Part shown: positions 2,622 through 31,365 of the stretch, piece by piece
How positions within the stretch are numbered: position 1 is the first letter of the stretch
How the letters are laid out: each line of letters begins with the position of its first letter
Source of the DNA: Mesorhizobium sp.
GTDB taxonomy: Bacteria; Pseudomonadota; Alphaproteobacteria; Rhizobiales; Rhizobiaceae
NCBI RefSeq assembly: GCF_017306545.1
Contig: NZ_JAFKID010000015.1
Span: 62,001 to 126,000 of the forward strand
DNA: 64,000 nt
Direction: 5' to 3'
Position numbers and translations under genes: made by a program
Notes under the pieces: model-generated
Databases searched by the model: none
Seen by the model: only the letters and a program-made list of their open reading frames with translations
What the model was told of the DNA's origin: nothing

Positions 2622-5600
2622 CAACGCACCTTTTGGGGCCGATTAACGCCCATGGCGACGAGCGCCTTGTTGGCGGCGCTGCCGCGCCTGGTCGTAGCCG
2701 CGGCCACACGCCGCTCGATGTAGATGTCCTCCCGCATGCCACCGGTGCCGTCGTCGGACTGCTCCTCGCGGATATCGATGCCGGCCATGTCGTGATAATG
2801 CCGCTCGATCTTTGGGGACGACGTCCAGGCCGCGCCCGGCGAGCCGGCCGGGGCACTGCCGCCCCCATAACCGCCGACGGCGAAGCCGCGCCCGCTCTTT
2901 GCCGCCGCCCGCATGCGGTCCAGGAACGGCACGCCGAGCGCGCGAACGACCGGTTCGTCGAGAACGTACTCTTTCTCGTGAACGAGGCCGGCGACGCGCC
3001 GTGGATCGCTGCCGCCGGTGGCACCACCGACGTCGAAGAGGCCGACGCGGGCTCCCGACAGGATATCGCCGGCAAACCTGGTCTGTCCGCCGCCGAACGG
3101 ACTGGCAAGCATGCCGAAGAAGCCACCACCCGAACTGCCGCCGCCCGATGCCTGGGAAACCGATTTGGCGAGGTTCTGGCCGAACTGGCCCAATCCGGAG
3201 CCGAACTGTCCTAGGTTCTGCGTCGCGGCCGTCGTTGTGACATCGAGGCGACCGAGGGCAGCGACCGCCTTATTGGCGCCCATGCCGAGGCTTTCGACGC
3301 CGGGAAACAGTGCCCGCTGGGCGGGCGTGAGCCCGTTGGCCCACGAGCCACCAGCCATGCCGACCTTGCCGCCGCCGAGGTCGAAATGCATCTGATCCAT
3401 GGCGCCGTACTTACCGCGTCCGCCGGAAAAGTAGCCGCCCCAGCGAAACTGGTCCGCCAGCTCCGGGTATTTCTCCATCTGGACCTGCCGAGCGACCTGG
3501 GCGAACTGCTCATAGGTCCTGAAGGTCGACGGGTCCTGGTAATTGGCAAGCGCCTTGCCGCTGGCGAGATCGGTAAGCCGGACGTCGGTGGCGAGGCCCT
3601 GGCCGTGGAATCGCGGATCGCCGGGGCGGCGACCGGAAAATGCGGAAACGCCGAAGCCACCGAACCGCTGCGAGGCTTCCGACAGGATATCGGTAAGGCG
3701 ATTATCGACGCCCTGCTTGTAGTTGCCGACGAAGGACAGCGCCTGACCGGCGGCGGACGCCAGGGCGCCGCCGCCCGGAACCAGCGACGCTACCGTCTTG
3801 GCCGCAGTCCCGGCGCCATTGTCGTTCGCCCCGGACAACAGCCGGGTGACATCACCTACGATACCCCCATCGCCGCCAAGGCCGCCGACAGGCACCACAT
3901 ACATCGGGTTCGCCATGGTGCCGAGCTGGCCAAGCCCGGCGGCTGGGTTCGGGGAACCCCCGAGTAAGGTATTGATCCAGCCGCCGAGGCCGCCAGCCTG
4001 ATCGAGCGTCGGAAGGTCGGCGCCGTACTGGCGGTTCAAAAACGGGTTCTTGACCGACATGTCAAAGAGGTTCTTCGCCATGTCTTTAGCGATATCGCTG
4101 AGCCGATCCTTCCAGTTGTCGAAGCCGTCGAAGGCAAGGTCGAAAATGTCGCTGTAGGCGTCCATTCCCGACTTGCGGATATCCTTCCAGATATCGACCT
4201 GCTGCTTCAGCCGCTCGTTCGTGCGGATGATCGCCGCATCGGGACCGTTAAGATCGTTGCCCAAGCCATACTGGCGCATGGTGCTGGCCACGCGCTGCTC
4301 GATCGGCGAGCGGCCGAGCTGCGCGGCGTCGAAGCCGAGATCGTCCTTCAGGTGCGCGCGCGCCGATGCCTCGGCATACTCCTTCACCTTGGCGGCAGCC
4401 TCCCCGATCAGGGCGATCTCCTTGCCGAAGACCCGCTGGAATTCCTGCTCGTTGGTGATGCCGTTGCGGATAGCCTCGTCGCGGATCTCCATGAGCCGCT
4501 GGTGGGCAAATTGCGCGGCTGCGACCTCGCCGGCGTTTTTGCCGATCAGGTCGTTTTCGCGGCGCATCTGGTCGAGCAACGTTACCGTCGAACGCACGCG
4601 ATCGTTCTGCGCCTCCACGATCTGATGCTGTGACTGCAGGTATGCGAGCTGTCCAGCCTGGTCGATGCGGCGGGTTCGGGCGTCGGGGTCCTCATCATTA
4701 TTATACTGTGACGCGGCAGCGGCACGGGCGGCGGCCGCGATCTGCGACGGCGAGCGAGCGTAGATCGCCATCCGCTGCGCGTCGAAAGCCTGCTGCTGAC
4801 GTGCGATCTCGACCTTCTGCGCAGCCAGATACTGGCTGTAGGAGCCGGTGTCTTCGGTGCTGAGCTCGCCGCGCCGAAGCGGGATACCGCCCGGACCAAG
4901 GCTATTGGCCAACTGATCCTGTGCGATCTTCAGCTGCCCCAACGCGATGGCGCCAGCCTGTGCGTCCTTCGTCAGCTCAAGCAGTTTTCCCGCTGCTATG
5001 GTCAGCGCTGAATTATTCGGATCGAGCGACCAACGGTCCTCGACCATTTTCCGGAATCCCAGAATATCCGGTGTTCCCTTGGCCGCCGTTTCCCGGAGAT
5101 AGGTAATCGCGTCGGAGAACGGCGCAAACTGCCTTCTGATGTCAAATCGGCTACCCGTCCCGCGACCGATTCCGCTTTGGAAACCCATGGCGCCGACAAG
5201 GTCCGGCATCTGGTTCGCCATCTGAATCTGAAGCTCGGCGCGCGTGGCAGACGACTGCAGGCGCAACGAAGTCGCGGTCGGCGAAAAGGCATTCTTGGCT
5301 TTGCCAGCGATGCCGTCGTATATCTCGCCGATGCCTTTAAGAATATCCGCGTGCTCTTGCAGCAGAGCATCCAAACTCTTCACTTGCTGGCGGGTGGACA
5401 CAAAGTAAGTGACGATGCCTGCGACGGCAGCCGCAGCCGCGCCAACGATCATGCCGGGCGGCGTCACGGCGAAGGCCAACAATGCCGATAGCGCATTGCG
5501 GCCGGCAACAGCGATCGCCGCCAACGACCCCCGCAACCCCTTCGGCCCGCTTTCGAGCGCGTCGTAAATCTGGCCGGCCTGGCTGGCGAAGATCTGCATT

Positions 5601-6991: not shown

Positions 6992-7918
6992 TCAGGTGAA
7001 GCTCATGGTGAGTTCGTTGGCGCCGAGGCTGGTCAGCATCAACGGCAGCGAATAGTTGCTGATGTTGTTCGTCTGACCCATCGTCGGCCGGCCGATCTGG
7101 ACGGCGTCGGCCGTCAGCCCGAAGATGTTGCCGGCGACGGTGCCGTGAGTGAGCGACAACGCCCCCTTGGTGTGGGCACGGGCGATGCCGAACCAGTCGA
7201 TCGTGGCGAGCGACGTCGCCTTGACGACAGCGGTGCCGGTCGCCTGCCGGTCCGTGATCTCGATGCTTTCCTCGCCGATCAGATGGCGAGGGTCCACCTG
7301 GTTGCCGAGAGCGATGTTGAGGCTCTCGGCGATCGCGGTCCAGCCATGCAAGGACATCGTCGTGTTGGCCTTGTTGGCCACGACGGCGTCCTTCCACATC
7401 GTCTTGGTGACGGCCGGATTGGGCTGGTCGGAAATCTCCCCAAGCAGGCCCTTCATCGTGAAGGTGAAGCGAGGAATGCGCTTCGGCGTGATGGCGAGCG
7501 AGATATCGCCGCGGGTGCCAAGGAAGACGTGACGCACACCGTCAGGGACAATGTACATGGAGACCGCGTCGTTCGCTTCGTCGACGGGCGTGTATTCGAC
7601 CGACGTGACGGCCGTAATCGTCTCGGCAAAGCCGCAGGCGCGAAGCAATGGGCCAACGGCCGGCGCAGTGCCAGCGACTCCCGAACCGGCGATCTCGACG
7701 GAGAACTGGAACTGGCCGTAGTCGCCGGTCAGGTAGACGCCCTGGTGACCGAGGTGCGGCTGCAGCAGGTTGCGCTGTTCTTCGTCGCCGGCGAGCGGCG
7801 TGAAGGTGACGTCGGACAGCTGGATGAAGTTGGCGGCGCCGGTCGGCGCGGCATCCGTGCCATAGACGGTTTCGAGTTTCGCCAGGGCGGCGAGCTTCTT
7901 CCAACGGCGAACGGCCAT
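6992..7918 (-). CDS. Major tail tube protein
   Basis: 308 residues, MAVRRWKKLAALAKLETVYG..., ending NYSLPLMLTSLGANELTMSFT. The opening 'LAKLETVYGTDAAPTGAANFI' pattern and the beta-rich body are typical of tail tube proteins of transposable siphoviruses. It is encoded just before the tail chaperones and after the tail terminator-like gene, the usual order. It would polymerise into the non-contractile tube. No sign of truncation. About 50 noncoding bases separate it from the chaperone gene. Confidence 0.85.
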   Translation of the reverse strand: MAVRRWKKLAALAKLETVYGTDAAPTGAANFIQLSDVTFTPLAGDEEQRNLLQPHLGHQGVYLTGDYGQFQFSVEIAGSGVAGTAPAVGPLLRACGFAETITAVTSVEYTPVDEANDAVSMYIVPDGVRHVFLGTRGDISLAITPKRIPRFTFTMKGLLGEISDQPNPAVTKTMWKDAVVANKANTTMSLHGWTAIAESLNIALGNQVDPRHLIGEESIEITDRQATGTAVVKATSLATIDWFGIARAHTKGALSLTHGTVAGNIFGLTADAVQIGRPTMGQTNNISNYSLPLMLTSLGANELTMSFT

Positions 7919-7921
7919 GGG

Positions 7922-8095
7922 TTATTTCCCCTTCTTCGAGGTTTCCGGCTGGTCGGCCGGGATGGGAGTTTCGGAAATGGCCGGCTCGGCCGGCGTGGCA
8001 GGCGGGGTTTCCTCGGTCCCGCCGGTGCGCGTCAGGCTGCCGTCCTTGTTGCGGATGTAGCTGCCGCCGGTAAGCGGCCGTTCGATCTTGGCCAT
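7922..8095 (-). CDS. Small phage structural-region protein, unknown
   Basis: 57 residues from ATG 8095 (MAKIERPLTGGSYIRNKDGSL), with a Pro/Glu/Thr-rich C terminus (PPATPAEPAISETPIP). It sits between the tail terminator-like and tail tube genes with only a few bases on each side. The N-terminal 'GGSYIRNKDGSL' resembles short head-tail-region proteins seen in Mu-like phages, but I cannot assign a function. The tail is likely disordered. Confidence 0.65.
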   Translation of the reverse strand: MAKIERPLTGGSYIRNKDGSLTRTGGTEETPPATPAEPAISETPIPADQPETSKKGK

Positions 8096-8097
8096 GG

Positions 8098-8526
8098 TCA
8101 GTCCTCTTCCTCGATGTAGCGGCTGGTCCGCCAAGTCTGGACGTAGACGGTGACGCCGTTGCCCATCGACGCGGATCGGCCGGCGGCGAGTTCGAATTCG
8201 TCGTTCTTCTCGGGATCGGGCGCCCAGCCCGCCAACGCCGCTTCGATCTCGCCCTTGAACAGATCGAAGCTGCCGGCGCGCTGCGCGCCCCTGGCGTCGT
8301 CGGCGCGACGAAGGACGAAGGCAACCAGCAGCAGCACCTCGACGCGCTGGCTGAAGCCGCCGGTCATGTACTCGTTCGGCGACGGCCGATCCTGAAACGG
8401 CAGCACGAAGGCTGCGCCGTTCGCCGGCGCGGTGCCGCGGCTGATCGCCTCCAGATCCTCGGCCGCGCCGATCGACGTGAGCGACGGCGCCTTTGCCTCG
8501 AGGCGGGCCATGACTTCGGCGATCAC
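8098..8526 (-). CDS. Tail terminator / neck protein (Mu gp37-like position)
   Basis: 142 residues, MIAEVMARLEAKAPSLTSIG... to TWRTSRYIEEED. The protein overlaps the upstream DUF1320 gene by ATGA. Pattern 'FVLPFQDRPSPNEYMTGGFSQRVEVLLLV' and the final 'VYVQTWRTSRYI' fit the tail terminator/minor tail family that follows gp36 in Mu-like phages. It would cap the tail tube and join it to the neck. Assignment is by order and general resemblance. Confidence 0.7.
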   Translation of the reverse strand: MIAEVMARLEAKAPSLTSIGAAEDLEAISRGTAPANGAAFVLPFQDRPSPNEYMTGGFSQRVEVLLLVAFVLRRADDARGAQRAGSFDLFKGEIEAALAGWAPDPEKNDEFELAAGRSASMGNGVTVYVQTWRTSRYIEEED

Positions 8527-8948
8527 AGCCAGCCTCCGAGCTTGTCCCTGGTGAACGCCGGCTCCGGCCCTTCGGACACGGTTGCGCCGCCGGACGAGGC
8601 CGCCGGCGTCGTACCGTCGGCGCCGGGAACGTTCAGCTTGCCGGCGACGGCCTTCTCCAGCTCGGCGAACGCATCGCGATAGTCGCGCACGACATAGTCC
8701 GGTGGCCCGTTGCGGTGCAGGTGGTAGCGCGCGATCGACACGGCCCAGCGCTGCACGACGGGCGCGACCGTGGTCAGCGGGAGCCGGAAACGCACGGCCA
8801 GATAGCCGTTGATCGCCTCGTCGGCCGCCTCGAGCGCCGCCTGGATGACGTCGGCGTCGGCGATGCCGTCATGGTCGCGATCGGCGGTGTCGAGGATCTC
8901 GATCTCGCCGGCTCGTTCGACCAGGTCGGAGAGGGACGCATAAGTCAT
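8523..8948 (-). CDS. DUF1320 family protein (Mu gp36-like)
   Basis: 141 residues from ATG 8948 (MTYASLSDLVERAGEIEILD). The 'LVERAGEIEILDTADRDHDGIADADVIQAALEAADEAI' layout, reading as an Asp-rich loop and helices, followed by 'NGYLAVRFRLPL', is characteristic of DUF1320. These head-completion proteins are encoded after gp35 in Mu. The start overlaps the stop of the Acb2-like gene as ATGA, and the stop overlaps the next gene. Frames further upstream in the same phase are not coding because they run through the Acb2-like gene. Confidence 0.85.
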   Translation of the reverse strand: MTYASLSDLVERAGEIEILDTADRDHDGIADADVIQAALEAADEAINGYLAVRFRLPLTTVAPVVQRWAVSIARYHLHRNGPPDYVVRDYRDAFAELEKAVAGKLNVPGADGTTPAASSGGATVSEGPEPAFTRDKLGGWL

Positions 8949-9214
8949 AGGACGATTCGGCCCGGCTTGAAGATCGAGCGGTTGACCGCCATGAAGCCCT
9001 TCTCGATGTCGGTGCGCCCGGTGGCGAGCCAGCGCTTGTCGACAGCGAGAGCGGCGTCTGCGGCGACTTCGTCGAGCAGGCGCAGAACGTGCTCTTCGAT
9101 CTCCTTCGGCGTGTTCACGCTGGCGATGGCCTCCGGCGACTGCGGACGATAGCCGGCGACAGGCAGGCCGGAGATCGGCCGAGGCATTTCGCCGTTGTCG
9201 CTCGAATGGTCCAC
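8945..9214 (-). CDS. acb2: Acb2/Tad1-hairpin family protein, putative anti-CBASS cyclic nucleotide sponge
   Basis: 89 residues from GTG 9214, preceded by GGAG six bases upstream (ATG starts at 9220 and 9187 are alternatives). The protein matches the Acb2 layout: PVAGYRPQSPEAIASVN, then K-EIEEHVLRLLDE, then DKRWLATGRTDIEKGFMAVN and RSIFKPGRI. Acb2 of Pseudomonas phages and T4 Vs.4 bind CBASS cyclic di- and trinucleotides. As I recall, Tyr11 and Lys26 contact the ligand; here Tyr22 and Lys37 have the same 15-residue spacing. It lies in the structural operon between the tRNA and gp36 genes. Family call is strong; ligand and activity are inferred. Confidence 0.78.
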   Translation of the reverse strand: MDHSSDNGEMPRPISGLPVAGYRPQSPEAIASVNTPKEIEEHVLRLLDEVAADAALAVDKRWLATGRTDIEKGFMAVNRSIFKPGRIVL

Positions 9215-9429
9215 CTTCATCTCCAAAAGCGTTCGGCGGCCGGGCTGAACCCCCACACGGCACCGTCGTGCCGGTCCCCAAAGGGTGCTGGGAGCCTCGC
9301 GAGCCGTACCAGGGCCGCCCCTCGGGTAATTCGAATGCCCGGCCTCCCAGCCGGGCTGTCCACCGGAAGGTCCCATCTCGCGACGGACCTCATGACATGG
9401 CGGGGCGCGGTGGCTTCCCCTGGGTATTC
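9215..9429 (-). other. Structured noncoding spacer between tRNA and acb2-like gene
   Basis: About 215 bases without a convincing reading frame. On the transcribed strand there are several GC-rich hairpins, including GCCCGGC...GCCGGGC (7-bp stem near 9337-9356) and GGCAC...GTGCC. It may be a processed tRNA trailer, an unidentified small RNA or decayed tRNA sequence. I see no promoter or terminator. Confidence 0.5.
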
Positions 9430-9506
9430 TGGTTGCGGGGGCCGGATTTGAACCGGCAACGTCGCGGTTATGAGCCGCGTGCTCTACCTGGTTGAGCTAC
9501 CCCGCG
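9430..9506 (-). tRNA. tRNA-Met(CAU), initiator-like, phage-encoded
   Basis: The reverse strand folds into a full 77-base cloverleaf with encoded CCA. Acceptor CGCGGGG pairs with CCCCGCA, leaving a C1.A72 mismatch, the hallmark of bacterial initiator tRNA. The anticodon arm is CGCGG-CTCATAA-CCGCG (anticodon CAU). T arm is GCCGG-TTCAAAT-CCGGC. Unlike a standard initiator, pair 11:24 is C:G and only two of the three G:C pairs at 29-31:39-41 are kept. It lies between structural genes of the late operon, so it is co-transcribed with them. A lysidine-modified Ile tRNA is less likely because of C1.A72. Confidence 0.88.
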
Positions 9507-9513
9507 GAAACTG

Positions 9514-9909
9514 TCAGGCCTCGCCGGCCAGCACCTTGAGCGGAGCGAGCTGCTCCCACTCGGGCTTCGTCAGCGCGATCGTGTCGCCCTCGGCGTAATC
9601 GCGGCCGTTGTGGCGGATGACGCCGTTGCCGCCGACGATGAAATCGCGCGTCGTCGGACCGTCCTCGTCGTCAGCGCCGGACGCGCCGGGATCCTTGAGC
9701 AGAGCATCGATCACTGCGGCGAGCCGGTCGCGTTCGGCGGTGGCGGCGTTGATCTTGACCTGGGCGGCAGCTTTGCCGTCGCTGTTGTCGGCGGCCGCGA
9801 ACTCCTGCTGGGCGGCGTCCAGGGCTTCCTCGGCCGCCGCGAACTTCGCCTTCGCGTCGTCGATCAGTTTCTGGCGGGTGTCGCCGGTGCCTTGCGTCTT
9901 CTTAGCCAT
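9514..9909 (-). CDS. Mu gp35-like protein
   Basis: 131 residues from ATG 9909 (MAKKTQGTGDTRQKLIDDAK). The N-terminal half is Ala/Asp/Gln-rich coiled coil. The C-terminal part 'GVIRHNGRDYAEGDTIALTKPEWEQL' is the conserved motif of Mu gp35/DUF7210-type proteins, small proteins encoded right after the major capsid gene. Probably a head or neck accessory protein; the exact role is unknown. The gene stops eight bases before the tRNA. Confidence 0.8.
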   Translation of the reverse strand: MAKKTQGTGDTRQKLIDDAKAKFAAAEEALDAAQQEFAAADNSDGKAAAQVKINAATAERDRLAAVIDALLKDPGASGADDEDGPTTRDFIVGGNGVIRHNGRDYAEGDTIALTKPEWEQLAPLKVLAGEA

Positions 9910-10012
9910 GTTTGTCTCCTGGGCCTTTGAGAAGGGAGCCGCGGCGGCTCGCTTCCGAAAGGCCCGGCGGCGGCTGTCCCCCACCGCCGCCGGACATCTC
10001 ACCAAACGCCGA

Positions 10013-10948
10013 TCAAGCGACCGCGTTGGTGAACAGGTAGCCGAGGTCTGGCGCCGAAATGACCTCCTCGACGCTCTCGCCGGAGCGGACGCGCACGGCG
10101 CCGCGCAGGCCGACTTTCGGTTCGGGGATGTCGCCGGAAACGCGGGTGCCGTACTGCGCCGTCCAGCCGAACGTCGGGATCTGACCCATGGAGCTGGCGG
10201 TCGCCTCGCGGCGCAGCAGCGCGCAGTGATTGCCCCAGACGCGGGTCCGCGTCGGCGCTTGACCGGGCTTGGCGCTGTTCAGCCAGCTGGCGCCGACGAT
10301 GATGTCGTCGAGCTCGAACAGGTCGGCCACGGCGCGCTTGTTCGCGATGCCCTTATCGGTGCCGGACGCGCTGAGCGAGGCTATGATCTTCGGGTTCATG
10401 CTCAGCTTGGCCCAGGTCTTGCGGCCCATGACGGCGATGTTCGGACGCACGATCATGCTATCGGCCGCATTGGTGATGTCGCCGATCGGATCGCTGGCGG
10501 CATCGGACCACTGCGAGGTGCCCGAAAGCGTCGTCTTGTTGCCGGTCGGATAGGTGCCGGCGGAGAAGACCTTGCCCGAGACGCGCACCTCGCGATCGAG
10601 CAAGACGAGGTTCATGAGGTTCTGCGCCGCGAAGGCCTTCGGGTCGTAGCCCTTCGGCGCGTTGTTGATGTCGTCGATCGGGATGACGTCGTCCAGGCCG
10701 TAGTCTTTCGTCGAGCTCTCGACTTCCGTTCCGTTGAACTCGACGGTGCCAGGTTCACCCTTGCGGCCGACCTTGGTGTCGGGGACAGTGATCGTCTGCG
10801 CGAAATCGAAGGTCATGTACTGGAAGACCTGCCTCGGCAGAGGCGGTCCGAGGCGCGGCAGCACCTGGTCGGCGATCAGGTCTGCATTCCGGAAGGCGAC
10901 GACGATCCCGGTCAGGACGGGATTGAGGGGAAACGGAAATCCGGGCAT
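10013..10948 (-). CDS. Major capsid protein
   Basis: 311 residues, MPGFPFPLNPVLTGIVVAFR. The N-terminal 'NADLIADQVLPRLGPPLPRQVFQY' and later 'PIAVMGRKTWAKLS'-like stretch fit the capsid proteins of transposable siphoviruses (HK97 fold expected). It follows protease/scaffold and decoration genes and precedes gp35, the standard head order. It would assemble with the nested scaffold and be matured by the protease. Length is normal for the group. Confidence 0.85.
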   Translation of the reverse strand: MPGFPFPLNPVLTGIVVAFRNADLIADQVLPRLGPPLPRQVFQYMTFDFAQTITVPDTKVGRKGEPGTVEFNGTEVESSTKDYGLDDVIPIDDINNAPKGYDPKAFAAQNLMNLVLLDREVRVSGKVFSAGTYPTGNKTTLSGTSQWSDAASDPIGDITNAADSMIVRPNIAVMGRKTWAKLSMNPKIIASLSASGTDKGIANKRAVADLFELDDIIVGASWLNSAKPGQAPTRTRVWGNHCALLRREATASSMGQIPTFGWTAQYGTRVSGDIPEPKVGLRGAVRVRSGESVEEVISAPDLGYLFTNAVA

Positions 10949-10996
10949 GGGGTGGTTCCTTGGGATCGAAGAGGGCGAAGGCGGTCAGGCGGCGCG

Positions 10997-11374
10997 CTAT
11001 GCGGCGCCCTGGACGCTGCCGGGGTTGATGAAGGCCTTGACGATGTCGCCGTCGACCGCCTTGGCGAGCGTGCGGCCGGCGACGACGTTGTTCACGGCAG
11101 CGGCGGGCGCTGCGACGACGGCGTTGCCGTCCGCGTCCGCCGTGATGAAATCGCCCGCGGCGATCGTGCCGCCGGCGACGACCTCGGCCGGGCCGAACAG
11201 CACCACATCGACACGCCCTCCGGATGCCGCCCCCCCGGGCTGATCGACGACGCCGGCGATCTTGCCGGTGGCGCTTGCGGCCGGCGCGACCTCGCCGTCG
11301 TTGGCGGTGAACACGACAAGCTGGCGGTGCACGAGCGCGGCGCTGGCGAGGAAGGTTTTCACGAAGGGGTTCAT
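10997..11374 (-). CDS. Capsid decoration protein (DUF2190/gpD-like)
   Basis: 125 residues, MNPFVKTFLASAALVHRQLV, Gly/Ala/Val-rich with repeated beta-strand signatures (GKIAGVVDQPGG, GRVDVVLFGPAEVVAGGTIAAGD, ITADADGNAV). This composition and the position between scaffold/protease and capsid genes match DUF2190 decoration proteins that stabilise capsids in the manner of lambda gpD. No catalytic residues expected. Confidence 0.78.
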   Translation of the reverse strand: MNPFVKTFLASAALVHRQLVVFTANDGEVAPAASATGKIAGVVDQPGGAASGGRVDVVLFGPAEVVAGGTIAAGDFITADADGNAVVAAPAAAVNNVVAGRTLAKAVDGDIVKAFINPGSVQGAA

Positions 11375-11407
11375 CGAAGATGTCTCCGGTTGCGGGAAGG
11401 CGGCGCG

Positions 11408-11869
11408 CTACTTGGCGCGCGCCTGGATGCGGGCGGCGGCCGCCGCCGGCGAGAGCGCCTCGCCCCTGGCCTTGGCGGTCGCGATTTCGGTTTCGATCGC
11501 CGCGGTGACCTGCTCGGGGTCGGCGAAATCGACCGCATCGCCGGTGGCGAGCTCACCGGTGACGACGGGGATCGGCAGCTTTTCGAGGAGGTCGCGGAAG
11601 GCCGCGCGCGAAGACATCTTCTTCGTCTCGTCCCCATCGGCGAAGGTCAGCTCATCATCGCCGAGATCCGAGAACAGCGCGGTGGCGGCGGCCTGCAGGC
11701 CGATCGGCAGGCGGCCGGCCTTGACGATCGTGTCGACGAAGGCGGCGTCGGCGGTGGAACGCGCCTTGCGCTCGACCTCGGCAAAGGTCGCCTCGCGGGC
11801 GGCGAGCTGCTGTTCGCGGGCCGTGAGATCGGCATTGCGCTCCGCTTCGGTCTTGGCCGGCTGGGTCAT
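11408..11869 (-). CDS. Nested scaffold protein (Mu gpZ-like), internal in-frame start
   Basis: An internal ATG at 11869 (MTQPAKTEAERNADLTAREQ), in frame with the protease, is preceded by AAGGAAG five bases upstream, a much better ribosome site than the protease itself has. The 153-residue product is the charged helical C-terminal region. Mu makes its scaffold gpZ from an internal start of gene I in exactly this way. Expression from this start is inferred from the ribosome site and family precedent. Confidence 0.75.
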   Translation of the reverse strand: MTQPAKTEAERNADLTAREQQLAAREATFAEVERKARSTADAAFVDTIVKAGRLPIGLQAAATALFSDLGDDELTFADGDETKKMSSRAAFRDLLEKLPIPVVTGELATGDAVDFADPEQVTAAIETEIATAKARGEALSPAAAAARIQARAK

Positions 11870-12523
11870 GGTGTCTTCCTTCGGGGTCGGTTGTTCGGAA
11901 TAAGCGGGCTGCTCGCGCTCGGCCGAGGCGCGCAGCTCGGCAGCGGCCTGCGTGATCTGGTCGACGTCCCACTGGGAAACGACCTTGTCGGCGGTCTCGA
12001 CGTCTTTCTCCTGGATGACGAAATCGCGAATGCCGCGGAACAGCCGGGCGACGGCGTCGAGCGACCAGATCTGGCGCCAGTCGTCGAAATGCGCGTCCTC
12101 GAACTCGACGACCATGGTGTCGTCGCCGAACTCGACCGGCTTCAGGCCCTTCACGGCCGGCGCCTGGGCGCCGAGGAAGCCGACATGGCGCAGGTAGTAG
12201 CTGCCGGGCGTCGGGTTGTTGGCCGCGTCCGGCGAATAGAAGGCCGCCGAGCGGGCGCGGAACTTGCCGTCCTTGACCAGGTCGGAGAACGCGGAGTCCA
12301 GCGACGACGGGGTTGCGACCAGGCGATCGTCCTTGATCGAGAGGCTGGCGACCCAGCCGTAGGCCGGATCGTCCGTCTTCGGATGACCGACGACGATCGG
12401 CGCCTGATGCAGCGCCGGATCGTAGCCGTCGACGATCGTCTTCAGGTCGGCCGCGCTGAAGGTCAGCGCTGCCCCTTGCGACGACGTATGGCGACCGGTG
12501 CGGAAGATTTCGAACGGCTTCAT
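11408..12523 (-). CDS. Capsid maturation protease (Mu gpI-like)
   Basis: 371 residues from ATG 12523 (MKPFEIFRTGRHTSSQGAAL); ATG 12535 is an alternative. The opening 'FRTGRHTSSQGAALTFSAADL' and 'APIVVGHPKTDDPAYGWVASL' are hallmarks of Mu-type protease I. The C-terminal third is a helical scaffold region (ERNADLTAREQQLAAREATF). It processes the scaffold and portal during head maturation. A 22-bp dyad lies 18 bases upstream of the longer start. Neither start has a strong ribosome site. Confidence 0.88.
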   Translation of the reverse strand: MKPFEIFRTGRHTSSQGAALTFSAADLKTIVDGYDPALHQAPIVVGHPKTDDPAYGWVASLSIKDDRLVATPSSLDSAFSDLVKDGKFRARSAAFYSPDAANNPTPGSYYLRHVGFLGAQAPAVKGLKPVEFGDDTMVVEFEDAHFDDWRQIWSLDAVARLFRGIRDFVIQEKDVETADKVVSQWDVDQITQAAAELRASAEREQPAYSEQPTPKEDTMTQPAKTEAERNADLTAREQQLAAREATFAEVERKARSTADAAFVDTIVKAGRLPIGLQAAATALFSDLGDDELTFADGDETKKMSSRAAFRDLLEKLPIPVVTGELATGDAVDFADPEQVTAAIETEIATAKARGEALSPAAAAARIQARAK

Positions 12524-12535
12524 GGCGCCGAACAT

Positions 12536-12850
12536 GCAGATCGGCGGCCGGCCGGCCTAGTCACAACGGTTTGTTGCTATGGGAGGAGAGTGGCGACGAA
12601 CACTCCCGGAGCGAGGCGGATGGAGCGAGTGCCCGCGCCATGCCCGCTAAAGGCTTTTCAAGGCCCTTCGAAGCGCTCTAACACATGCGGAGGCTAGTTC
12701 GGGACCTCTCGCCCGTAAAGAGGCATTCCTGGCGCCCCGCGTCATCGTCTCCAAATCGCCGTTGAACGGGTTTTGAAAGGGGCTGGAGCCCCTTTGAGTG
12801 TTTTTCCGACCCGGTGGACCGCTGAGGCTCTTGCGTGCACCCCTGGCGGC
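12536..12850. other. Noncoding spacer between protease and gpG genes (putative late promoter region)
   Basis: About 315 bases with no credible gene inside an otherwise tightly packed operon. It holds the dyad at 12558-12579 and a perfect hairpin AAAGGGGCT/AGCCCCTTT (about 12775-12795), followed on the plus strand by GAGTGTTTTT, which would be a terminator for rightward transcription. Mu has its P_I late promoter at this position. Confidence 0.6.
12558..12579 (-). promoter_or_regulatory. 22-bp dyad, putative late-activator site upstream of protease gene
   Basis: Plus strand halves TAGTCACAA and TTGTTGCTA flank CGGT. The site matches the perfect dyad at 20883-20904 at 20 of 22 positions. Position corresponds to Mu P_I, which is activated by C. 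I see no clear shared -10 element, and the site is close to the start codon, so promoter function is inferred. Confidence 0.6.
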
Positions 12851-13360
12851 TCATTCCAGCGCCCTGCCGGCGGCCTGTTGGAAATGGTCCGCGACGATCG
12901 CCAGGACCTCCTCCTCGTCCTGCTTGCTGAGGCCGAGGAACGGGCGGGCCGGAATGGTGACGTTGTCGACGGTAAAGCTCTCGCCCCCCATCGAGAAGAA
13001 CAGCGCAGCGGCGTTCCTGGCCTTGATGACGCCGCCGAACTGATGAATGGCGCCGTAAATAGCATTCGTTCCGACCTCGACGGTGTCGTCGCCGGCAAGC
13101 TGCCAGACGATGTTCGCAAGGTCGCCGCTCTCGCCACGCAGGATGCCGGGACCTTTCTTCGTCTTGGCATAGAGCGGATTGAGCGGGGCGAAATGGCTGC
13201 CGTCAGGCGATTCCTCGCGGGCGATGCGTTCCTTCGTCGAACGCTCGAGCTCGACGCCGATGTTCTTCAGGGCGGGCTTCAGGTCGCTGGCCGCTTCCAG
13301 GAGGCGGGCCAGCGCATCGTCGGTGTTCCTGATGTCGAGCGTCAGCACGGCGCCGGTCAT
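12851..13360 (-). CDS. Phage virion morphogenesis protein (Mu gpG-like)
   Basis: 169 residues, MTGAVLTLDIRNTDDALARL. It contains 'STKERIAREESPDGSHFAPLNPLYAKTK' and 'VEVGTNAIYGAIHQFGG', the conserved pattern of the Mu gpG/P2 gpS tail-completion family. These proteins join the head and tail. Gene order between MuF-type protein and protease matches Mu (F, G, I). The C terminus is helical (LSKQDEEEVLAIVADHFQQA). Confidence 0.88.
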   Translation of the reverse strand: MTGAVLTLDIRNTDDALARLLEAASDLKPALKNIGVELERSTKERIAREESPDGSHFAPLNPLYAKTKKGPGILRGESGDLANIVWQLAGDDTVEVGTNAIYGAIHQFGGVIKARNAAALFFSMGGESFTVDNVTIPARPFLGLSKQDEEEVLAIVADHFQQAAGRALE

Positions 13361-13364
13361 GTCG

Positions 13365-13484
13365 TCATCCTTGCTTCATCGGCCCTGCTGGCCTATATTC
13401 TGCCTGTCGCCTTATTGCCCCGGCCGGGCTCCAAATAGGGCGACCGCCAGAGCGCAGCTCGCCGGAGTGTGCGCTCTTTTTCAT
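13365..13484 (-). CDS. Possible 39-residue phage protein
   Basis: A short frame starting at ATG 13484 (MKKSAHSGELRSGGRPIWSP) overlaps the upstream stop as ATGA, the coupling style of this operon, and stops four bases before the next gene. The product is basic, with no known motif. The same DNA forms an 8-bp hairpin AGAGCGCA/TGCGCTCT with five T residues on the plus-strand side, so the sequence may be structural rather than coding. Confidence 0.35.
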   Translation of the reverse strand: MKKSAHSGELRSGGRPIWSPAGAIRRQAEYRPAGPMKQG

Positions 13485-14731
13485 GGGCGGCGATAAAGCA
13501 GGGCGCCGGTGCGCAGGCGCTGCAGATACGTCGCGCTGCCGTCGAAGCCGGTAACGGCTATCCAGCCCTTCGACGTCCACTCGAAACGGGCGAGCAGGTT
13601 GACGCCGCCCGGCAGCACGAAACGCTTGAGATAGGAGCGCATCAGCACCACGCCCGACGTCACCGCGCGCCAGTCCGCCCAGATCTCGTCCGGATCGATG
13701 ATGGTGTCGGCGATCAGGCGCATGTAGGGGCCGCGGCCGTTCTTGCCGGCCTTGCCTGCCACGACGTTACCGGCGATGTCGCGCTCCTCGAGGAGACGCT
13801 GGCTGATGGCGATGACGGCGCCGGACGCATCGCGGTGCAGCTTGCTCTCCCCTGGCTTGAGGCCGAACTCGCCCAGGAAGGCGGAGACGAAATCGGCGTC
13901 CGGAGCGACTTTCGGCAACAGGCGTTCCGCAGCGACAGGGGTCGGCGCCGGCAGCGCCGGCAAGGTGGCGGCCGGCGCCGGCGGCGACCCGAACGGTTTT
14001 AGCGGCTCGCGCAGTTCGGGCGGCACGATGCCGTCCAGCCACGACTGCCCGACGTTGTACTCCCAGCCCCGATCGATGCCGGGGTAGCGGATTTCCGGCT
14101 CGCCGGTGCGCGGGTCGCGGCCTTCGTATTGCTCGCCGAGCGGCCAAGGATCGGGTCCGGACTTGCCCAGCGCATGCAGTTGCCGATCGCTGAGCGCCTC
14201 GACGTCGCAGCCGCAACCCCAGCCGTTCGGCGGGAAGTAGACCTTCCAGATCGGATCGGTGGCGGCAAACACCTTGCCGTCGAGCGCCAGGTGCGTCAGG
14301 CGCGGATGGACGGCGTTGCTGTGCCGGTACCGCCACCACGGCCGATAGCGCAGCACGTCCGGATCGGTCATCTGCTTATAGCGGCCGGCCATGTAGGACG
14401 TGCGCATGTTCGTCTTGTAGATGATGCGGGCGCGCCAGGCGCGCCGCTCCTCGTCCGTCGAGCCGCGCGCGTTGAACTTCCAACCTGTCCGGTCGACGAT
14501 CGCGTCGAAGTCCTTGCGAAATTCCTGAAGCCCGGTTCCCGACGTCTGGGCTTTCGCCATGGCGGCCCGGAAATCCGCCAGCATGTCGTCACGCTCGACG
14601 CCGGCGACGGAAAAGCCGCGGACATGACCGTCGTGCCGGAGATCGTCCGATTTCTTCGTCGGCAGGTTGACCTTGCCGTTGAAGAAGTCGATCGCCTCGG
14701 CGAACGGAAGCTGCCTGCCCTCAATCGCCAC
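13481..14731 (-). CDS. MuF-type head morphogenesis protein with C-terminal PBECR2-like nuclease domain
   Basis: 416 residues. Residues about 30-230 are the Mu gpF/SPP1 gp7 domain (YKTNMRTSYMAGRYKQM, HPRLTHLALDGKVF, FPPNGWGCGCDVEALS). A Pro/Ala-rich linker (PPAPAATLPALPAPTPVAAE) follows. Residues about 295-416 resemble the PBECR2 toxin-like nuclease domain (EIWADWRAVTSG, LMRSYLKRFVLPGG, ARFEWTSKGWIAVTGFD, LRTGALLYRR). MuF proteins are packaged minor head proteins, and fused C-terminal toxin domains may enter the host with DNA. Overlaps the portal gene by 11 bases. Nuclease activity is inferred from family only. Confidence 0.85.
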   Translation of the reverse strand: MAIEGRQLPFAEAIDFFNGKVNLPTKKSDDLRHDGHVRGFSVAGVERDDMLADFRAAMAKAQTSGTGLQEFRKDFDAIVDRTGWKFNARGSTDEERRAWRARIIYKTNMRTSYMAGRYKQMTDPDVLRYRPWWRYRHSNAVHPRLTHLALDGKVFAATDPIWKVYFPPNGWGCGCDVEALSDRQLHALGKSGPDPWPLGEQYEGRDPRTGEPEIRYPGIDRGWEYNVGQSWLDGIVPPELREPLKPFGSPPAPAATLPALPAPTPVAAERLLPKVAPDADFVSAFLGEFGLKPGESKLHRDASGAVIAISQRLLEERDIAGNVVAGKAGKNGRGPYMRLIADTIIDPDEIWADWRAVTSGVVLMRSYLKRFVLPGGVNLLARFEWTSKGWIAVTGFDGSATYLQRLRTGALLYRRP

Positions 14732-16244
14732 GGGCGCCGCCTTCGTCGATCACGCTGGCCCGGCCAGAAAGCTCGGCCGCGATCGACGCCTGTTCCATGA
14801 GCATGCCGAGATCGTCGACGCCGATCTCCGACCCGAGACGCAGCAACCGGGCCGACAGGTCGTCGTACGAAACCGCGGCATCGACCTCGGCGCGGATCGC
14901 CTCGATCATCTTGTCGACGTCCGTCGCCGCCATCACCTCCAGCTGGTCGGCAAGGCTATCGGGATCGTCGCCGGCGGGCGCCTGCCGATCGGCGAACAGC
15001 TTGTCGAGCGCCGATGTCTCGCCGGCCGTGGCGCCGGGCGCGTCCGTGGGAGCCGCGGCGTTCGGATCGGTGCCTGCCGGCGTCGCGGTGGTTTTCTTGA
15101 CCCATTCGCCGCCATAGGTGTCATCGAGATACTTGGTGTCCTTGGGCTCGTAGCCCATGTCGGAAATGCGCTTGTCGCGCTCCGAGCGCTTGTCGATATC
15201 CTCTGCCTCGGCGAAGTCGCGCCAGACATCGGGCACCTGGGCGCCGGGCATGTTCAGCTCGACGATCCATTGCACGAGCGTCTTCTTCAGGGTGTAGCTG
15301 ATCAGGTCGGCGTCCGCCTTGGCGATGGCGATGCGCACCTGGTTGTGGATCTCGCCGAGCGACCGCGCGCCCCGCTCGCCGGAATTGGTCGATAAGGTCT
15401 CGCCGAGCACCGCCTCCGACATGAGTTCGTCGAGGTAGCGGGACATGGCCTCCAGGACGTCGCCACCGCCGCCGGCCTTCGCCTCGAGCAGTTGCACGAC
15501 GACGTTGTCGGGATGTGCGATGGCACCGTCCACGCCAAGACTGCGCGCGGCGGCGAGCGCCTGCTTCTGCTTCGTCTCGTCAAACTCGCCCTGATAGCTC
15601 ATGTCGACAGTCGGCGACGCGAACCGCTCGGTGGCACGCAACCAGTTCGCCAGCACCTGCCGCTTGAACCATGCCGGCCAATACAGGACCGAGCCGACGC
15701 CGATGCCGTAGGGATCGTCGTCGTCATCGTCGATCGAATGGCGGTGGACGATGAACTTCCGATCCGGAACCGGTATGCCCTCGTAGGTCGTATCCTTCGT
15801 CAAAAGGCGCAGCTCGCCGTCGACGGTGAAGCGGAAGCGGCCCTGGCGGCGGACCTTGACGGCAATCACCGTCCAGACGCCGTCGATGTTGGCCCACATG
15901 ACTTCGGCGACGGCATAGCCCTTCAGCACCGCACCCATGAGGCCGCGGGTCAGCATGTCGAAGTTGATGCTCTTGAGCTGGGTGCTGACCAGCAGCGCGG
16001 CCTTCTTGTCGATCAGCCGCTTCCCCGCCTCAAAGACGTTCCACTCGCGCGAGCAGACTTCCAGCTTGCGTTTCTGCAGCACGGAAAAGGCATGCGGGTC
16101 GCGCCGGATTTCGTCGTAGAGCTCGATGCCCTTGCCGCCCCCGCGCGCCTTCAGGGTTTCGTCGGTCGGCTCCAGCACGTCCTGGAAGGCCGACACGATC
16201 GGGTCGGTCTTGATCGTCGCGATTTCGCGGACTTCGACGCCCAT
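14721..16244 (-). CDS. Portal protein (DUF935, Mu gp29-like)
   Basis: 507 residues from ATG 16244 (MGVEVREIATIKTDPIVSAF). DUF935 signatures are visible: 'PHAFSVLQKRKLEVCSREWNV', 'GYAVAEVMW', 'KFIVHRHSIDDDDDDPYGIG', 'LYWPAWFKRQVLANW', and 'LGETLSTNSGERGARSLGEI'. It forms the dodecameric DNA gate at the head vertex. A frame extending upstream of 16244 overlaps the terminase and is not coding. The C-terminal 100 residues are acidic and helical. Placed directly after the large terminase, as in Mu. Confidence 0.93.
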   Translation of the reverse strand: MGVEVREIATIKTDPIVSAFQDVLEPTDETLKARGGGKGIELYDEIRRDPHAFSVLQKRKLEVCSREWNVFEAGKRLIDKKAALLVSTQLKSINFDMLTRGLMGAVLKGYAVAEVMWANIDGVWTVIAVKVRRQGRFRFTVDGELRLLTKDTTYEGIPVPDRKFIVHRHSIDDDDDDPYGIGVGSVLYWPAWFKRQVLANWLRATERFASPTVDMSYQGEFDETKQKQALAAARSLGVDGAIAHPDNVVVQLLEAKAGGGGDVLEAMSRYLDELMSEAVLGETLSTNSGERGARSLGEIHNQVRIAIAKADADLISYTLKKTLVQWIVELNMPGAQVPDVWRDFAEAEDIDKRSERDKRISDMGYEPKDTKYLDDTYGGEWVKKTTATPAGTDPNAAAPTDAPGATAGETSALDKLFADRQAPAGDDPDSLADQLEVMAATDVDKMIEAIRAEVDAAVSYDDLSARLLRLGSEIGVDDLGMLMEQASIAAELSGRASVIDEGGARGD

Positions 16245-16246
16245 GG

Positions 16247-17692
16247 TCACATCCTCATAAAGTCGGAAAGGTCGGCTCGGCCGGTTTCGGTCTGACTGCC
16301 GGCGCCGGCGAACTCGGCTGCCGTCTCCGCCGTCTGCCTCTGCACGCCGGTCCCGACGCCGAACTCGGCCGCGACGCCGCCGGCCGCCTCGATCGCGAGC
16401 GCGAGCGCCCAGAAGCGGTCGGCATGGCCGTCGGCCGTGCGCTCGGCCGTGAAGCGTATATTGCCCGCAGCCGACACCTGCTTGGTGACGGACCTGAGAT
16501 CGGAGCGAATTTCCTTCCTGAAGGGGATACGAAGCCGGCGCTCCTCCATGCGCGAACGCACCGGATAGGCCAGCGCCTCCTTGACGGCCGGCGTGAAGGT
16601 GACGCCCTCGACCTTGTACTTGCCGTATTTGCGCTGCGCGTCGTCGTTCCAGCCGATACCGAGGCCGGTGGCGTCCAGGCAACTGCGCCGGCAGCGCTCC
16701 AGCCACGGCCACAGGATTTTCTCCTGGTCCGGCTTCGACATGTTCTTCAGCTCTTCGACATGGCGGGTGTAGAGGACGTCGCCGAGCTTCTCGACGACCC
16801 AGATGACCGTCAGGTCATGCTTGCGGCCAATATCGATACCGGCATAGAGCCGGCCGCCCTCGATCGTGGTCCAGTCGCCAAAGGTCGCCGGATACTCGCA
16901 AGCGGCGATCAGGTCGTATTCCAGGAAGGCTGCGTCGTCGTCGGCCGGCTGGCACATGTATTCCTGGAGAAAGCTTTCTTCGTCGGCGCATCCGGCCTTC
17001 ACCCACTCGAAATATTGCGCCTCGTCCATCTCCTGCCGCTCGTCGTCGGCCGGCAGCGTCTGCTGTAGCTTCCATAGGAATCCGTCATCGAGGGCGTTCT
17101 GGAGCGTGACGCGATGCAGGCTGAGCTTCTTGGGGTTGCCGCCTTCGCGCGCCTCACGGACCAGCTGGTTGAAGAAATTGTGCGAGCCGCGGTGCGTGGA
17201 TATGACCTCCATCGATCCGCCCCAGGTGATGCCGGGATAGGCGATCGACCAGAGCTTGCGCGGATCGGGATGCAGGGCGAATTCGTCGAGTACGCGACCG
17301 CCGCGCTTGCCGGCCTGGGCGTCGGGGTTGGAGCTCATGGAGTTGATGCGGCGTTCGTTGGCGAAGCGCAGGACGTAGGCGGTGTCCTTGTTCTTCGGGT
17401 CGATCACCTGCTCGCCGAGATCCTGCGCGGCAATGTCGAGGATGCCGGACCAAAGCTTGCAATCCTCGAGGAAGAGACGCGCCTGGATATCGTCGCGAGA
17501 GGAAACCCACTGGTCGCGCTTGGCGTCGATCATCGCCGTGCGCGAGACGGTGGCGTAGGCCGTGGACCAGGACAGGCCGATCTGGCGGCCCTTTTCCATC
17601 AGCTTCAGCCGCGAATCGTCCAGCACCCACCGTGACTGGTACGGCAGGAAGATCGCGTCTCGGTTCGCGGGAATACGAAGGGCGCGGCCCAT
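16247..17692 (-). CDS. Terminase large subunit (Mu gp28-like)
   Basis: 481 residues. The ATPase domain has a Walker A-like 'MEKGRQIGLSWST' (about residues 33-45) and Walker B 'GGRVLDEFAL' (about 132). The nuclease domain begins with 'LYAGIDIGRKHD' (about 280), with catalytic Asp. It packages phage DNA by headful and, in Mu relatives, cuts host flanks. It follows the DUF3486 small subunit with a one-base stop/start overlap and precedes the portal. Confidence 0.94.
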   Translation of the reverse strand: MGRALRIPANRDAIFLPYQSRWVLDDSRLKLMEKGRQIGLSWSTAYATVSRTAMIDAKRDQWVSSRDDIQARLFLEDCKLWSGILDIAAQDLGEQVIDPKNKDTAYVLRFANERRINSMSSNPDAQAGKRGGRVLDEFALHPDPRKLWSIAYPGITWGGSMEVISTHRGSHNFFNQLVREAREGGNPKKLSLHRVTLQNALDDGFLWKLQQTLPADDERQEMDEAQYFEWVKAGCADEESFLQEYMCQPADDDAAFLEYDLIAACEYPATFGDWTTIEGGRLYAGIDIGRKHDLTVIWVVEKLGDVLYTRHVEELKNMSKPDQEKILWPWLERCRRSCLDATGLGIGWNDDAQRKYGKYKVEGVTFTPAVKEALAYPVRSRMEERRLRIPFRKEIRSDLRSVTKQVSAAGNIRFTAERTADGHADRFWALALAIEAAGGVAAEFGVGTGVQRQTAETAAEFAGAGSQTETGRADLSDFMRM

Positions 17693-19789: not shown

Positions 19790-20038
19790 CTAGACCAGGG
19801 CGACGGGCGAGACGACGGGCGCTATGGCGGCGTCCGGCGGATCGGGCCAGAGCGTCAGCGCCAGCAGCGCCAAACCAAGCGCAAGCAGCACCGTGCCGAC
19901 GACGGCGACACCGGTGACCTTGGCCTGCCCCGGAATGGGCGTCATGGCGTCAGCAAAAGCCGCCAGCACCATCAACCCGAAACCGAACAAGATCAGCGCC
20001 GCCGAGACGGCGATAGCGAGGATGATCGCGCCGAGCAT
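19790..20038 (-). CDS. Small two-segment membrane protein of the lysis cassette
   Basis: 82 residues, MLGAIILAIAVSAALILFGF, with two membrane segments (about residues 3-28 and 42-64) and a Pro-rich C terminus (WPDPPDAAIAPVV). It is sandwiched between endolysin and the 3TM holin and shares its first base with the endolysin stop. Could be a second holin or antiholin. No family recognised. Confidence 0.7.
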   Translation of the reverse strand: MLGAIILAIAVSAALILFGFGLMVLAAFADAMTPIPGQAKVTGVAVVGTVLLALGLALLALTLWPDPPDAAIAPVVSPVALV

Positions 20039-28714: not shown

Positions 28715-30913
28715 TCAAAGGCCGATTGCTTCGTCGAAGCCGGCCGGCATCAAACTCAACGCGGAATACTCGGGACCCTCGCGGTAGCCTGTTAGCCACC
28801 GCGCATCTTGTTCGCCGATCGGCTGGCCGCCGGCCTGAAGCCGCTCCAGCTGCTTCGCCCGCCGGAAGCGGCCGTAAGCCTCCTCGACCGGATTGATCGG
28901 AGTGACGTTGGCCGGCCGCAGCGCCTGCGCGTCGGCGCCGGCGAGCAGCTGCGCATGGATTTCGGCGGCCCGCCCTTCGAGCGGGACCGTCGGCGCCGGT
29001 GAGGCCGCCGCGATCGCCGCGGCGATCTGCGGAGTGGTGTGAACTTCCTCGCGCGGCGGGAACCGGATGACGTTGGAGCGCTCGGCCTCGCGAGCGGCGG
29101 CGTCGGCCTCCAGCACGGCCAAATGCCGGTCGATGCGCTCGGTGCCCGTCAGGTGCCGGACCGCCTTCCTGGCTGGATCGACGATCTGCCGGATTTTCTG
29201 CTCGCGCTCGGCCCGGCCGGCCTTGACCGCCTGTACCGGATCGATGCCGGCGAGTTCGTAGCAGACGGCCTCGTCGATATAGACCTCGCCGTCCTCGGAG
29301 AAGACATACGCGCGACCGGCGTCGAGAGGGTCCATGCGGAGCAGGCAGCGCGTGCGCGGCAGAACGGCAGGACAGCTGAAATAGTGCTTGTCGGCGCCGA
29401 TCTTGATCCCGAAGCCGCGCTTCGTCATCACGCGGGTGTTGACCGAGAGCAGGAGCACATCGAGGGCGCGCTCGTCGACGCGCCGGATCGTCGTAACCGA
29501 CGCCTCGGCGACCTGGGCGGGCGTGCGGCCGCCAAGGCCGCCATGCTCGTGCTGCTCGTAATCGGCAGCGATCCAGCGATCGAAGTAGACCTGCAGTTCG
29601 GCGGCGGTCAGTTGGACCGCGAAAGCGTCGGCATCGTCGCAGCCGAGACGCTGCGCAAACGATTTACGGCTCTCTATCGCCGAACGGTCGGCGACGTTGT
29701 GGCCGATGAAGCCCGGCAGTTTTGGCCCCATCTGGTGCTGGAACGTCTTGATGACGCGCTCGACGTGGCCCTTTTCCTGCGGCGTGTATTTCTGCGAGCG
29801 CAGGACATCGATGCCGAGGGAACGAAACAGACGGTCGGTGTCTTTCGCCACGAAATCCGAGCCGTTGTCGGTCTTGATCATCCGTGAAACGCCGAGCTTC
29901 AGGATGGCCTTGCGCGCCAAAAGCCCCACAGCCGACGCCCTCGGCGTCTTCGACGTGGTGATGACGATGCGGCGGGTCGCCAGATCGATGCACATGTAGA
30001 TCGAGTGCCGGCCGTCGACACACAGGACGTCGATAGGGGAGGCGTCGATCTGCCAGAGCTGGTTGGGTTCAGTGACCCAGGCGAAGGCGTTGGTGCCGCT
30101 GAAGGCGAAATGGCTCCGGTACTTGTCTGGATTGGAAACCTTGGTGATTGCCACGTCGTTCTCAGCCTTCAGCGCCTTGATGAAGTGCTGGAAGGTCCGC
30201 TCGGGCGGCATTGGCTTGAACTCGCCGTACCGGTCGACCAGCTCGTCGCCGAATTCGGCGCGGCATTGGATCTTGATGTCCCGCGCCGTGGTGTGCTTCG
30301 GGTTGAGCATGACGAGGCCGAGGATGAAGTTGCGGACGGCGCCGTCGTTGGCGGTGTCGAGCAAGCCGGTACCCTTGCGGGCTGTCGCCGGGTCAAAGGC
30401 GAGACGGGCGGTGTCTTGCCGGGCGCCACTGCGCCAGCGGGCGAGTGAGCGGACCGACAATGCGTCCAGATTCTCACGCAACCAGTCTGGAACGTCGATT
30501 GAACCGGCGTTGAAGAGCCTGCAAAAATAATCGTCCGCCGACTTGGCGCCGAGGCCCGTAGACCGGCGGAAGGCATCGGCCAGCCGCAATGCGACGATCT
30601 TCGCATCGCGAGCCTCGCGGCCGCGGGCTGACGTGACGTCGTCGCCGGAAAGCGGCGCGATCAGGTCTTCGGGGTCGATCCGGAAGGACTTGGCGACATA
30701 GGTCAGGCGCGTCGGCAGCGGCAGAAGGTCGAGGTGGTACTCATAGCCGCCGCCGCCTTCGCGGCCGCCGCGGGGACGCGCGAGGGCGTGATAGCGGCGC
30801 CAGTTTTCGCGCTCGGCGAGATCGTTCACCCCTCGCTTCGAGGCGGGCAGGCCAGGCAACATCCCGGTCTCAGAGTGATCCGCAATCTCTTGCGCCGTAA
30901 ACCAGACCTGCAT
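28715..30913 (-). CDS. MuA-like DDE transposase
   Basis: 732 residues from ATG 30913 (MQVWFTAQEIADHSETGMLP); TGATG overlap with the upstream gene. N terminus is a Mu-type winged helix (ASKRGVNDLAERENWRRYHA). The catalytic core has Asp about 288 in WQIDASPIDV, Asp about 348 in IKTDNGSDF and Glu about 384 in EKGHVERVIKTF. The C-terminal beta-barrel and tail include 'KHYFSCPAVLPRTRCLLRMD'. It cuts and joins phage ends for lysogenisation and replicative transposition. Confidence 0.96.
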   Translation of the reverse strand: MQVWFTAQEIADHSETGMLPGLPASKRGVNDLAERENWRRYHALARPRGGREGGGGYEYHLDLLPLPTRLTYVAKSFRIDPEDLIAPLSGDDVTSARGREARDAKIVALRLADAFRRSTGLGAKSADDYFCRLFNAGSIDVPDWLRENLDALSVRSLARWRSGARQDTARLAFDPATARKGTGLLDTANDGAVRNFILGLVMLNPKHTTARDIKIQCRAEFGDELVDRYGEFKPMPPERTFQHFIKALKAENDVAITKVSNPDKYRSHFAFSGTNAFAWVTEPNQLWQIDASPIDVLCVDGRHSIYMCIDLATRRIVITTSKTPRASAVGLLARKAILKLGVSRMIKTDNGSDFVAKDTDRLFRSLGIDVLRSQKYTPQEKGHVERVIKTFQHQMGPKLPGFIGHNVADRSAIESRKSFAQRLGCDDADAFAVQLTAAELQVYFDRWIAADYEQHEHGGLGGRTPAQVAEASVTTIRRVDERALDVLLLSVNTRVMTKRGFGIKIGADKHYFSCPAVLPRTRCLLRMDPLDAGRAYVFSEDGEVYIDEAVCYELAGIDPVQAVKAGRAEREQKIRQIVDPARKAVRHLTGTERIDRHLAVLEADAAAREAERSNVIRFPPREEVHTTPQIAAAIAAASPAPTVPLEGRAAEIHAQLLAGADAQALRPANVTPINPVEEAYGRFRRAKQLERLQAGGQPIGEQDARWLTGYREGPEYSALSLMPAGFDEAIGL

Positions 30914-31365
30914 CAGCGCCCTCCCTTCATCTTTGCGAAGGCGGCCTGCTTGCGGCGCGTGACTTCCTGCTCGTGCTCGTCGAGCAGGTGGTATTCGACG
31001 ATCGCCGCGTATTTCGACGGCACGACCACGTGATCGAAGCGCTCGGCGACGAACGCGAGGGCGTCGACGCATCCGGTGGCCTCGATCAGCGCGATGAAGC
31101 GCTCCAGCGTGATCTTGTGCGCCTCCGCGCCTTCTGAGGCGTAGTGGTCGAGCAAGTCGCGCGAGACGGTGTAGCCGAGCTCGCCGCTCATGCGCTCGGC
31201 GACCTTGCCGCGGTCCTGGTCCTCCAGGGCGAGCCTGACGACCTGCGATATCTGGTTGGCGATGCGGCTGCCGCGCACGGCCCCCTCGGCAAACCCGGCA
31301 ACCACCTTCGGCGGCTCCCATGTCAGCAGATCGCCCGTCAGACTATCGCCACGCGCCCGCGCCAT
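30913..31365 (-). CDS. Early phage protein upstream of transposase, unknown
   Basis: 150 residues, MARARGDSLTGDLLTWEPPK. Contains 'IANQISQVVRLALEDQDRGKVAERMSGELG' with a helix-turn-helix-like pattern and 'MLDHYASEGAEAHKITLERF'-type helices. Homologous positions in RcapMu/B3-like phages carry small conserved proteins without known function. Overlaps both neighbours by a few bases, so is co-translated with MuA. Confidence 0.75.
   Translation of the reverse strand: MARARGDSLTGDLLTWEPPKVVAGFAEGAVRGSRIANQISQVVRLALEDQDRGKVAERMSGELGYTVSRDLLDHYASEGAEAHKITLERFIALIEATGCVDALAFVAERFDHVVVPSKYAAIVEYHLLDEHEQEVTRRKQAAFAKMKGGR

Follow-up and report, generated by a model that had tools for sequence, protein, structure and literature searches.

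A predicted Acb2-family sponge gene between the capsid and gp36 genes of a Mu-like Mesorhizobium prophage

The closest described relatives of the gene considered here are the Acb2 proteins of Pseudomonas phages (PDB 8h2j, 8h2x and 8ixz; gp34 of phage JBD67), which belong to a tested family directed against cyclic-oligonucleotide-based antiphage signaling systems (CBASS). An excerpt of PMC13083879, citing Huiting et al. 2023, indicates that deletion of acb2 from JBD67 has been tested. Vs.4 of phage T4 (PDB 7uq2) is treated as a PHROG 717 protein in an excerpt of PMC10097602, where Y8, H11, K23, R79 and F82 are given as its contacts to cyclic GMP-AMP (cGAMP). Here, we analyze an Acb2-type gene (8945..9214, minus strand) in a 64,000-nt stretch of Mesorhizobium sp. 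DNA (contig NZ_JAFKID010000015.1, positions 62,001 to 126,000; hereafter, the window). The original prediction, made from the letters of the window, was an anti-CBASS sponge encoded within the structural operon of a transposable prophage. Family, fold and ligand residues support a predicted sponge function, and we regard the gene as a sound addition to the Acb2 family, at a type of site already known for it.

Family, fold and ligand residues

The open reading frame (ORF) of 89 codons runs from a GTG at 9214 to a stop at 8945 on the minus strand, with GGAG 6 nt upstream of the GTG. There are alternative in-frame starts, namely an ATG at 9220, directly after the GGAG, and an internal ATG that opens MPRPISG; hence, the GTG start is likely, short of proven. 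The product matches Pfam family PF24729 (Acb2_Tad1_hairpin) at 61.5 bits (cut-off 27; E 8.5e-17), and PHROG 717 at E 2.6e-13. In a phmmer search of the PDB, the protein finds the "p26" Acb2 chains 8h2j and 8ixz at E 2.8e-6. A profile was built from an alignment of 43 rows, comprising 38 of a set of 42 loci, four phage loci and the window gene; L015, L029 and L042 were left out as repeats of others, and L041 as a fragment. This profile matches the Acb2 chains (8ixz, E 3.1e-18) and Vs.4 (E 3.7e-11) in the PDB and nothing else to E 0.01. Matches of the single sequence to TAL effectors (phmmer, E about 1e-3 to 4e-2) were rejected as short repeat matches, and they are gone in the profile search.

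An AlphaFold model of the monomer consists of two long antiparallel helices (H27-52 and H60-82), as in solved Acb2, and the nine best PDB matches in a fold search with this model are all Acb2 or Vs.4. Structure prediction, proposed at the outset as a check, thus agrees with the Acb2 fold. Solved Acb2 also has a short N-terminal helix, according to an excerpt of a review; none is seen in the model, whose N-terminus is of low confidence.

All three motifs that had been taken as the mark of Acb2 and Tad1 are found in the product, and the spacing of tyrosine and lysine holds as well: Y22 and K37 lie 15 residues apart, the same as in the Acb2 chain 8h2j and in Vs.4 (Y8-K23). In the profile alignment, the five cGAMP contacts of Vs.4 correspond to Y22, Q25, K37, R79 and F82 of the window protein, so that four of five are identical and H11 is replaced by Q25. 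Conservation across the 43 rows is nearly complete, with Y22 and K37 kept in all, R79 in 42, and F82 and Q25 in 41; G21, Y22, K37, M75 and P84 are the only invariant columns. R61 aligns with R67 of 8h2j, a residue of the site for cyclic triadenylate (cA3), and is kept in 42/43 rows. The Vs.4 hexamer residues L29, A66, A73 and A77 align to V43, G66, G73 and V77. Relative to T4, where a lytic phage carries the gene rather than a transposing prophage, PHROG 717 and the four contact residues are common to both proteins. JBD67 gp34 shares family, hairpin fold and Tyr-Lys spacing with the window protein but is only 31% identical to it, has a longer hairpin turn, and carries Ala and Leu where the window protein has F82 and Q25, respectively.

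We favor, at a probability of about 0.88, the view that the window gene encodes a cyclic-oligonucleotide sponge of the Acb2 family. The helical hairpins would assemble into a hexamer, and pockets between subunits, lined by Y22, K37, R79 and F82, would hold cyclic dinucleotides, such that CBASS-type effectors are kept off during phage maturation, to the benefit of the phage. The sponge would be made along with the late virion genes, and its stop codon overlaps the start of the next of these; on this basis, its activity would be expected following induction or in late infection, and not in the resting lysogen.

Placement among the late genes

The predicted setting, a transposable prophage, is borne out by the surrounding genes. 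On the minus strand, the head genes come in the order terminase, Mu-type portal (14721..16262; PF06074, E 1.5e-96), MuF-type protein (so labeled from tblastn to RcapMu), virion morphogenesis protein, protease, scaffold- or cement-like protein, and major capsid protein (10013..10948; phrog_1005, E 1.9e-88; 49.5% identical to the JBD67 capsid). There follow a small gene (9514..10005), with a weak DUF7210 match below cut-off and a later ATG start likelier than that of the listed ORF; a tRNA(CAU) gene; acb2; a Mu gp36-like head-tail adaptor gene (8523..8948; PF07030, E 5.4e-31); a tail terminator gene (8098..8526; PF23840, E 1.4e-21); an unnamed small ORF; a tail tube gene (6992..7918; PF18906, E 2.3e-13); and a long ORF with weak similarity to the RcapMu tape measure. 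A Mu-type transposase is encoded at 28715..31321, also on the minus strand (rve, E 3.3e-12; HTH_Tnp_Mu_1, E 1.3e-7), and GemA at 22107-22919. Because the acb2 stop and the gp36 ATG overlap in ATGA, acb2 reads as a member of the late operon, which together with the gene order lends support to the late expression originally proposed. A scan of 8000-13600 for sigma-70-like promoters found none; shuffled sequences average just 0.3, so the scan has little power. The spacer that separates the tRNA from acb2 (9224-9429, roughly 200 nt) is without a convincing gene and may carry regulatory sequence. Elsewhere on the minus strand, a winged helix-turn-helix protein encoded upstream of the transposase gene (33599-33994; HTH_35, E 1.8e-24) is perhaps a phage regulator, and a Glycosyl hydrolase 108 protein (20038-20802; E 4.7e-18) is perhaps the phage endolysin.

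Placement of acb2 between capsid and gp36 is already known. In JBD67, the PF24729 match (23012-23296) falls in gp34, located between gp32 (major head protein) and gp35 (head-tail adaptor), as in the window. Two Rhodobacter phage proteins, RcapMu44 and RcWaterboi_42, are 58-66% identical to the window protein and have the same neighbors on either side; unlike in the window, no tRNA was found in the stretches examined there. The deposited annotation of RcapMu44 (JN190960.1; L044 5986-6276) reads "similar to cyclic-nucleotide binding domain". Neither the gene order common to JBD67 and RcapMu nor the tRNA gene just upstream figured in the original prediction. With the window protein as query, tblastn retrieved 14 phage records out of 50,697, two of them RcapMu, and every one is from a phage of Rhizobium, Rhodobacter, Caulobacter or Brevundimonas; this search fails to reach JBD67, and more distant members are therefore missed.

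Among 87 acb2 loci obtained by tblastn (not deduplicated, the window's own two loci excluded), the combination of upstream capsid and downstream gp36 is found in 17, capsid alone in 8 and gp36 alone in 6; terL lies at most 3 kb downstream in 12, and the remainder have none of the three. In Caulobacter phage Jess A, the acb2-type gene has hypothetical genes around it and DNA polymerase I nearby. Viewed from the slot, 75 of 161 distinct capsid-gp36 intervals contain a detected acb2 and 86 do not (here and below, distinct refers to DNA, and the window is counted once). Two PF24729 matches close to the cut-off (L361 and L369; 28.1 and 26.9 bits) are missed by the 43-row profile, and a few slots that seem empty may thus hold a diverged acb2. 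In Mu-like phages of P. aeruginosa, accessory genes, including anti-CRISPRs, occupy regions of genomic plasticity, as stated in an excerpt of PMC4378225.

Likely target and alternative readings

The host genome (99.99% complete) has a single PF24729 match, which is the window gene, and a profile search found no SMODS match in it, leaving a CBASS target in this particular host unsupported. Within the host's family, SMODS is found in 28/199 genomes (24 over cut-off), which makes CBASS a plausible target for the host range of the phage. PF24729 itself is found in 10/199 genomes of the family (9 over cut-off), 22/397 of the order and 7/385 of the class, the window's genome being included in each tally. 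It is possible, albeit doubtful, that a sponge of this fold is aimed mainly at some other cyclic-nucleotide defense, such as the cA3 signaling of type III CRISPR, a reading that overlaps with the favored one in that the protein is the same and the alarm another. The lack of a SMODS match in the host and the conservation of R61 point in this direction, as does the description, in an excerpt of the review, of cyclic trinucleotides bound by Acb2 at an independent site, with a potential effect on type III CRISPR. On the other side, CBASS is there to be met in the family, and the cGAMP residues are conserved.

The position of the gene, flanked by capsid and adaptor genes and overlapping gp36, would also suit a head-tail protein, whether part of the virion or active in its assembly, with no more than the hairpin in common with Acb2. 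We consider this very improbable, given that more than half of the slots (86/161) are without detected acb2, that acb2 occurs in other places too, near terL or, in Jess A, near DNA polymerase I, and that Y22 and K37 are among the five invariant columns. Less probable again is a Tad1 protein targeting glycocyclic ADP-ribose (gcADPR) of the Thoeris defense. PF24729 spans the hairpins of Acb2 and Tad1 alike, and to this extent the window protein resembles both. However, the N-terminal antiparallel beta-sheet described for Tad1 in the excerpt of the review has no counterpart in the model, which contains no strand of at least 3 residues, its N-terminal 20 residues being of low confidence; moreover, the profile matches in the PDB are to Acb2 and Vs.4 only.

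The adjacent tRNA(CAU) gene

The tRNA gene upstream of acb2 (9430-9506, minus strand) was identified with ARAGORN, which was run on all 371 loci; it scores 63.7 bits with Rfam RF00005, encodes its CCA, and begins 7 nt past the stop codon of the upstream gene. Initiator tRNAs are distinguished by an unpaired 1-72 position, GGG:CCC in the anticodon stem, and A11-U24. In the window tRNA, C1 and A72 are unpaired, the anticodon stem is GC-rich (CGG:CCG), and 11-24 is C-G. Its best match among the other host tRNAs is 77% identical over 57 nt, and another is 68% identical; an initiator-tRNA pattern had no match in the host genome, so the comparison covers these two host tRNAs. The tRNA as a phage attachment site was considered and rejected, given the Mu-type transposase of the phage and the position of the tRNA in the middle of an operon.

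Of 160 distinct acb2 loci, six have a tRNA(CAU) on the acb2 strand within 300 bp: the window, L003 (4438-4511), L087 of Pleomorphomonas koreensis (4897-4972; repeated exactly in L354), L098 of a Devosia metagenome-assembled genome (2037-2110, downstream of acb2), L130 (2654-2730) and L349 (1392-1467). Read by eye, positions 1-72 are clearly unpaired in four of the six (C.A in the window, G.A in L087 and L130, A.A in L349). In L003, they form a G-C pair and the anticodon stem has mismatches; in L098, the T stem is unusual and 1-72 is ambiguous (G-C by a fixed-offset script, G.A by eye with a 6-pair T stem). Some of the six may be decayed. The complete GGG:CCC stem is present in L087, L098 and L130 only, and A11-U24 in L087 only. 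Pairwise identity among the six is 60-85%. In L087, L130 and L349, the tRNA ends 25-41 nt from the matched part of acb2, much nearer than in the window.

Such a tRNA occurs in 4/75 capsid-gp36 slots with acb2 and in 0/86 without (Fisher's exact test, one-sided, p 0.045; p 0.097 when the window, from which the question arose, is left out); these values are generous, as the loci are related to each other. A covariance model from five of the tRNAs, applied to 250 of 342 loci, matched nothing beside acb2 except four of the tRNAs from which it was built (4/66, 0/84 and 0/100 loci by batch); away from acb2, it matched in L028, L032, L034 and, at E 0.75, L091 of the 100-locus batch. Scanning viral contigs for exact patterns of the tRNA gave no match. 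Together, the association of acb2 with tRNA(CAU) is suggestive only.

It is conceivable, but in our estimation unlikely, that acb2 and an initiator-like tRNA(CAU) make up a recurrent late-operon counter-defense cassette of alphaproteobacterial phages. The sponge would silence cyclic-nucleotide alarms, and the tRNA would refill an initiator pool depleted by host anticodon nucleases, or else processing of the tRNA would determine the 5′ terminus of the acb2 mRNA. The host genome has 16 matches to the PIN domain, the domain of VapC toxins. An excerpt of PMC10264068 argues that phage tRNAs resist host anticodon nucleases; it also states that tRNA-fMet was in general avoided by phages in cases where its anticodon is a target of VapC-LT2, which speaks in part against refilling. 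Among the open-licence papers listed in our searches, no report of an initiator-like tRNA linked with acb2 was seen, and this neighbor is the sole part of the locus that may be new, on thin evidence.

With the window gene, a tested anti-CBASS family gains a further Mu-like prophage as carrier. The slot between capsid and head-tail adaptor houses acb2 in Pseudomonas phage JBD67 as well as in Rhodobacter phages, a pattern pointing to a standing accessory site for counter-defense genes. Should the link with an initiator-like tRNA prove real, it would offer a testable second function to seek beside known sponges.
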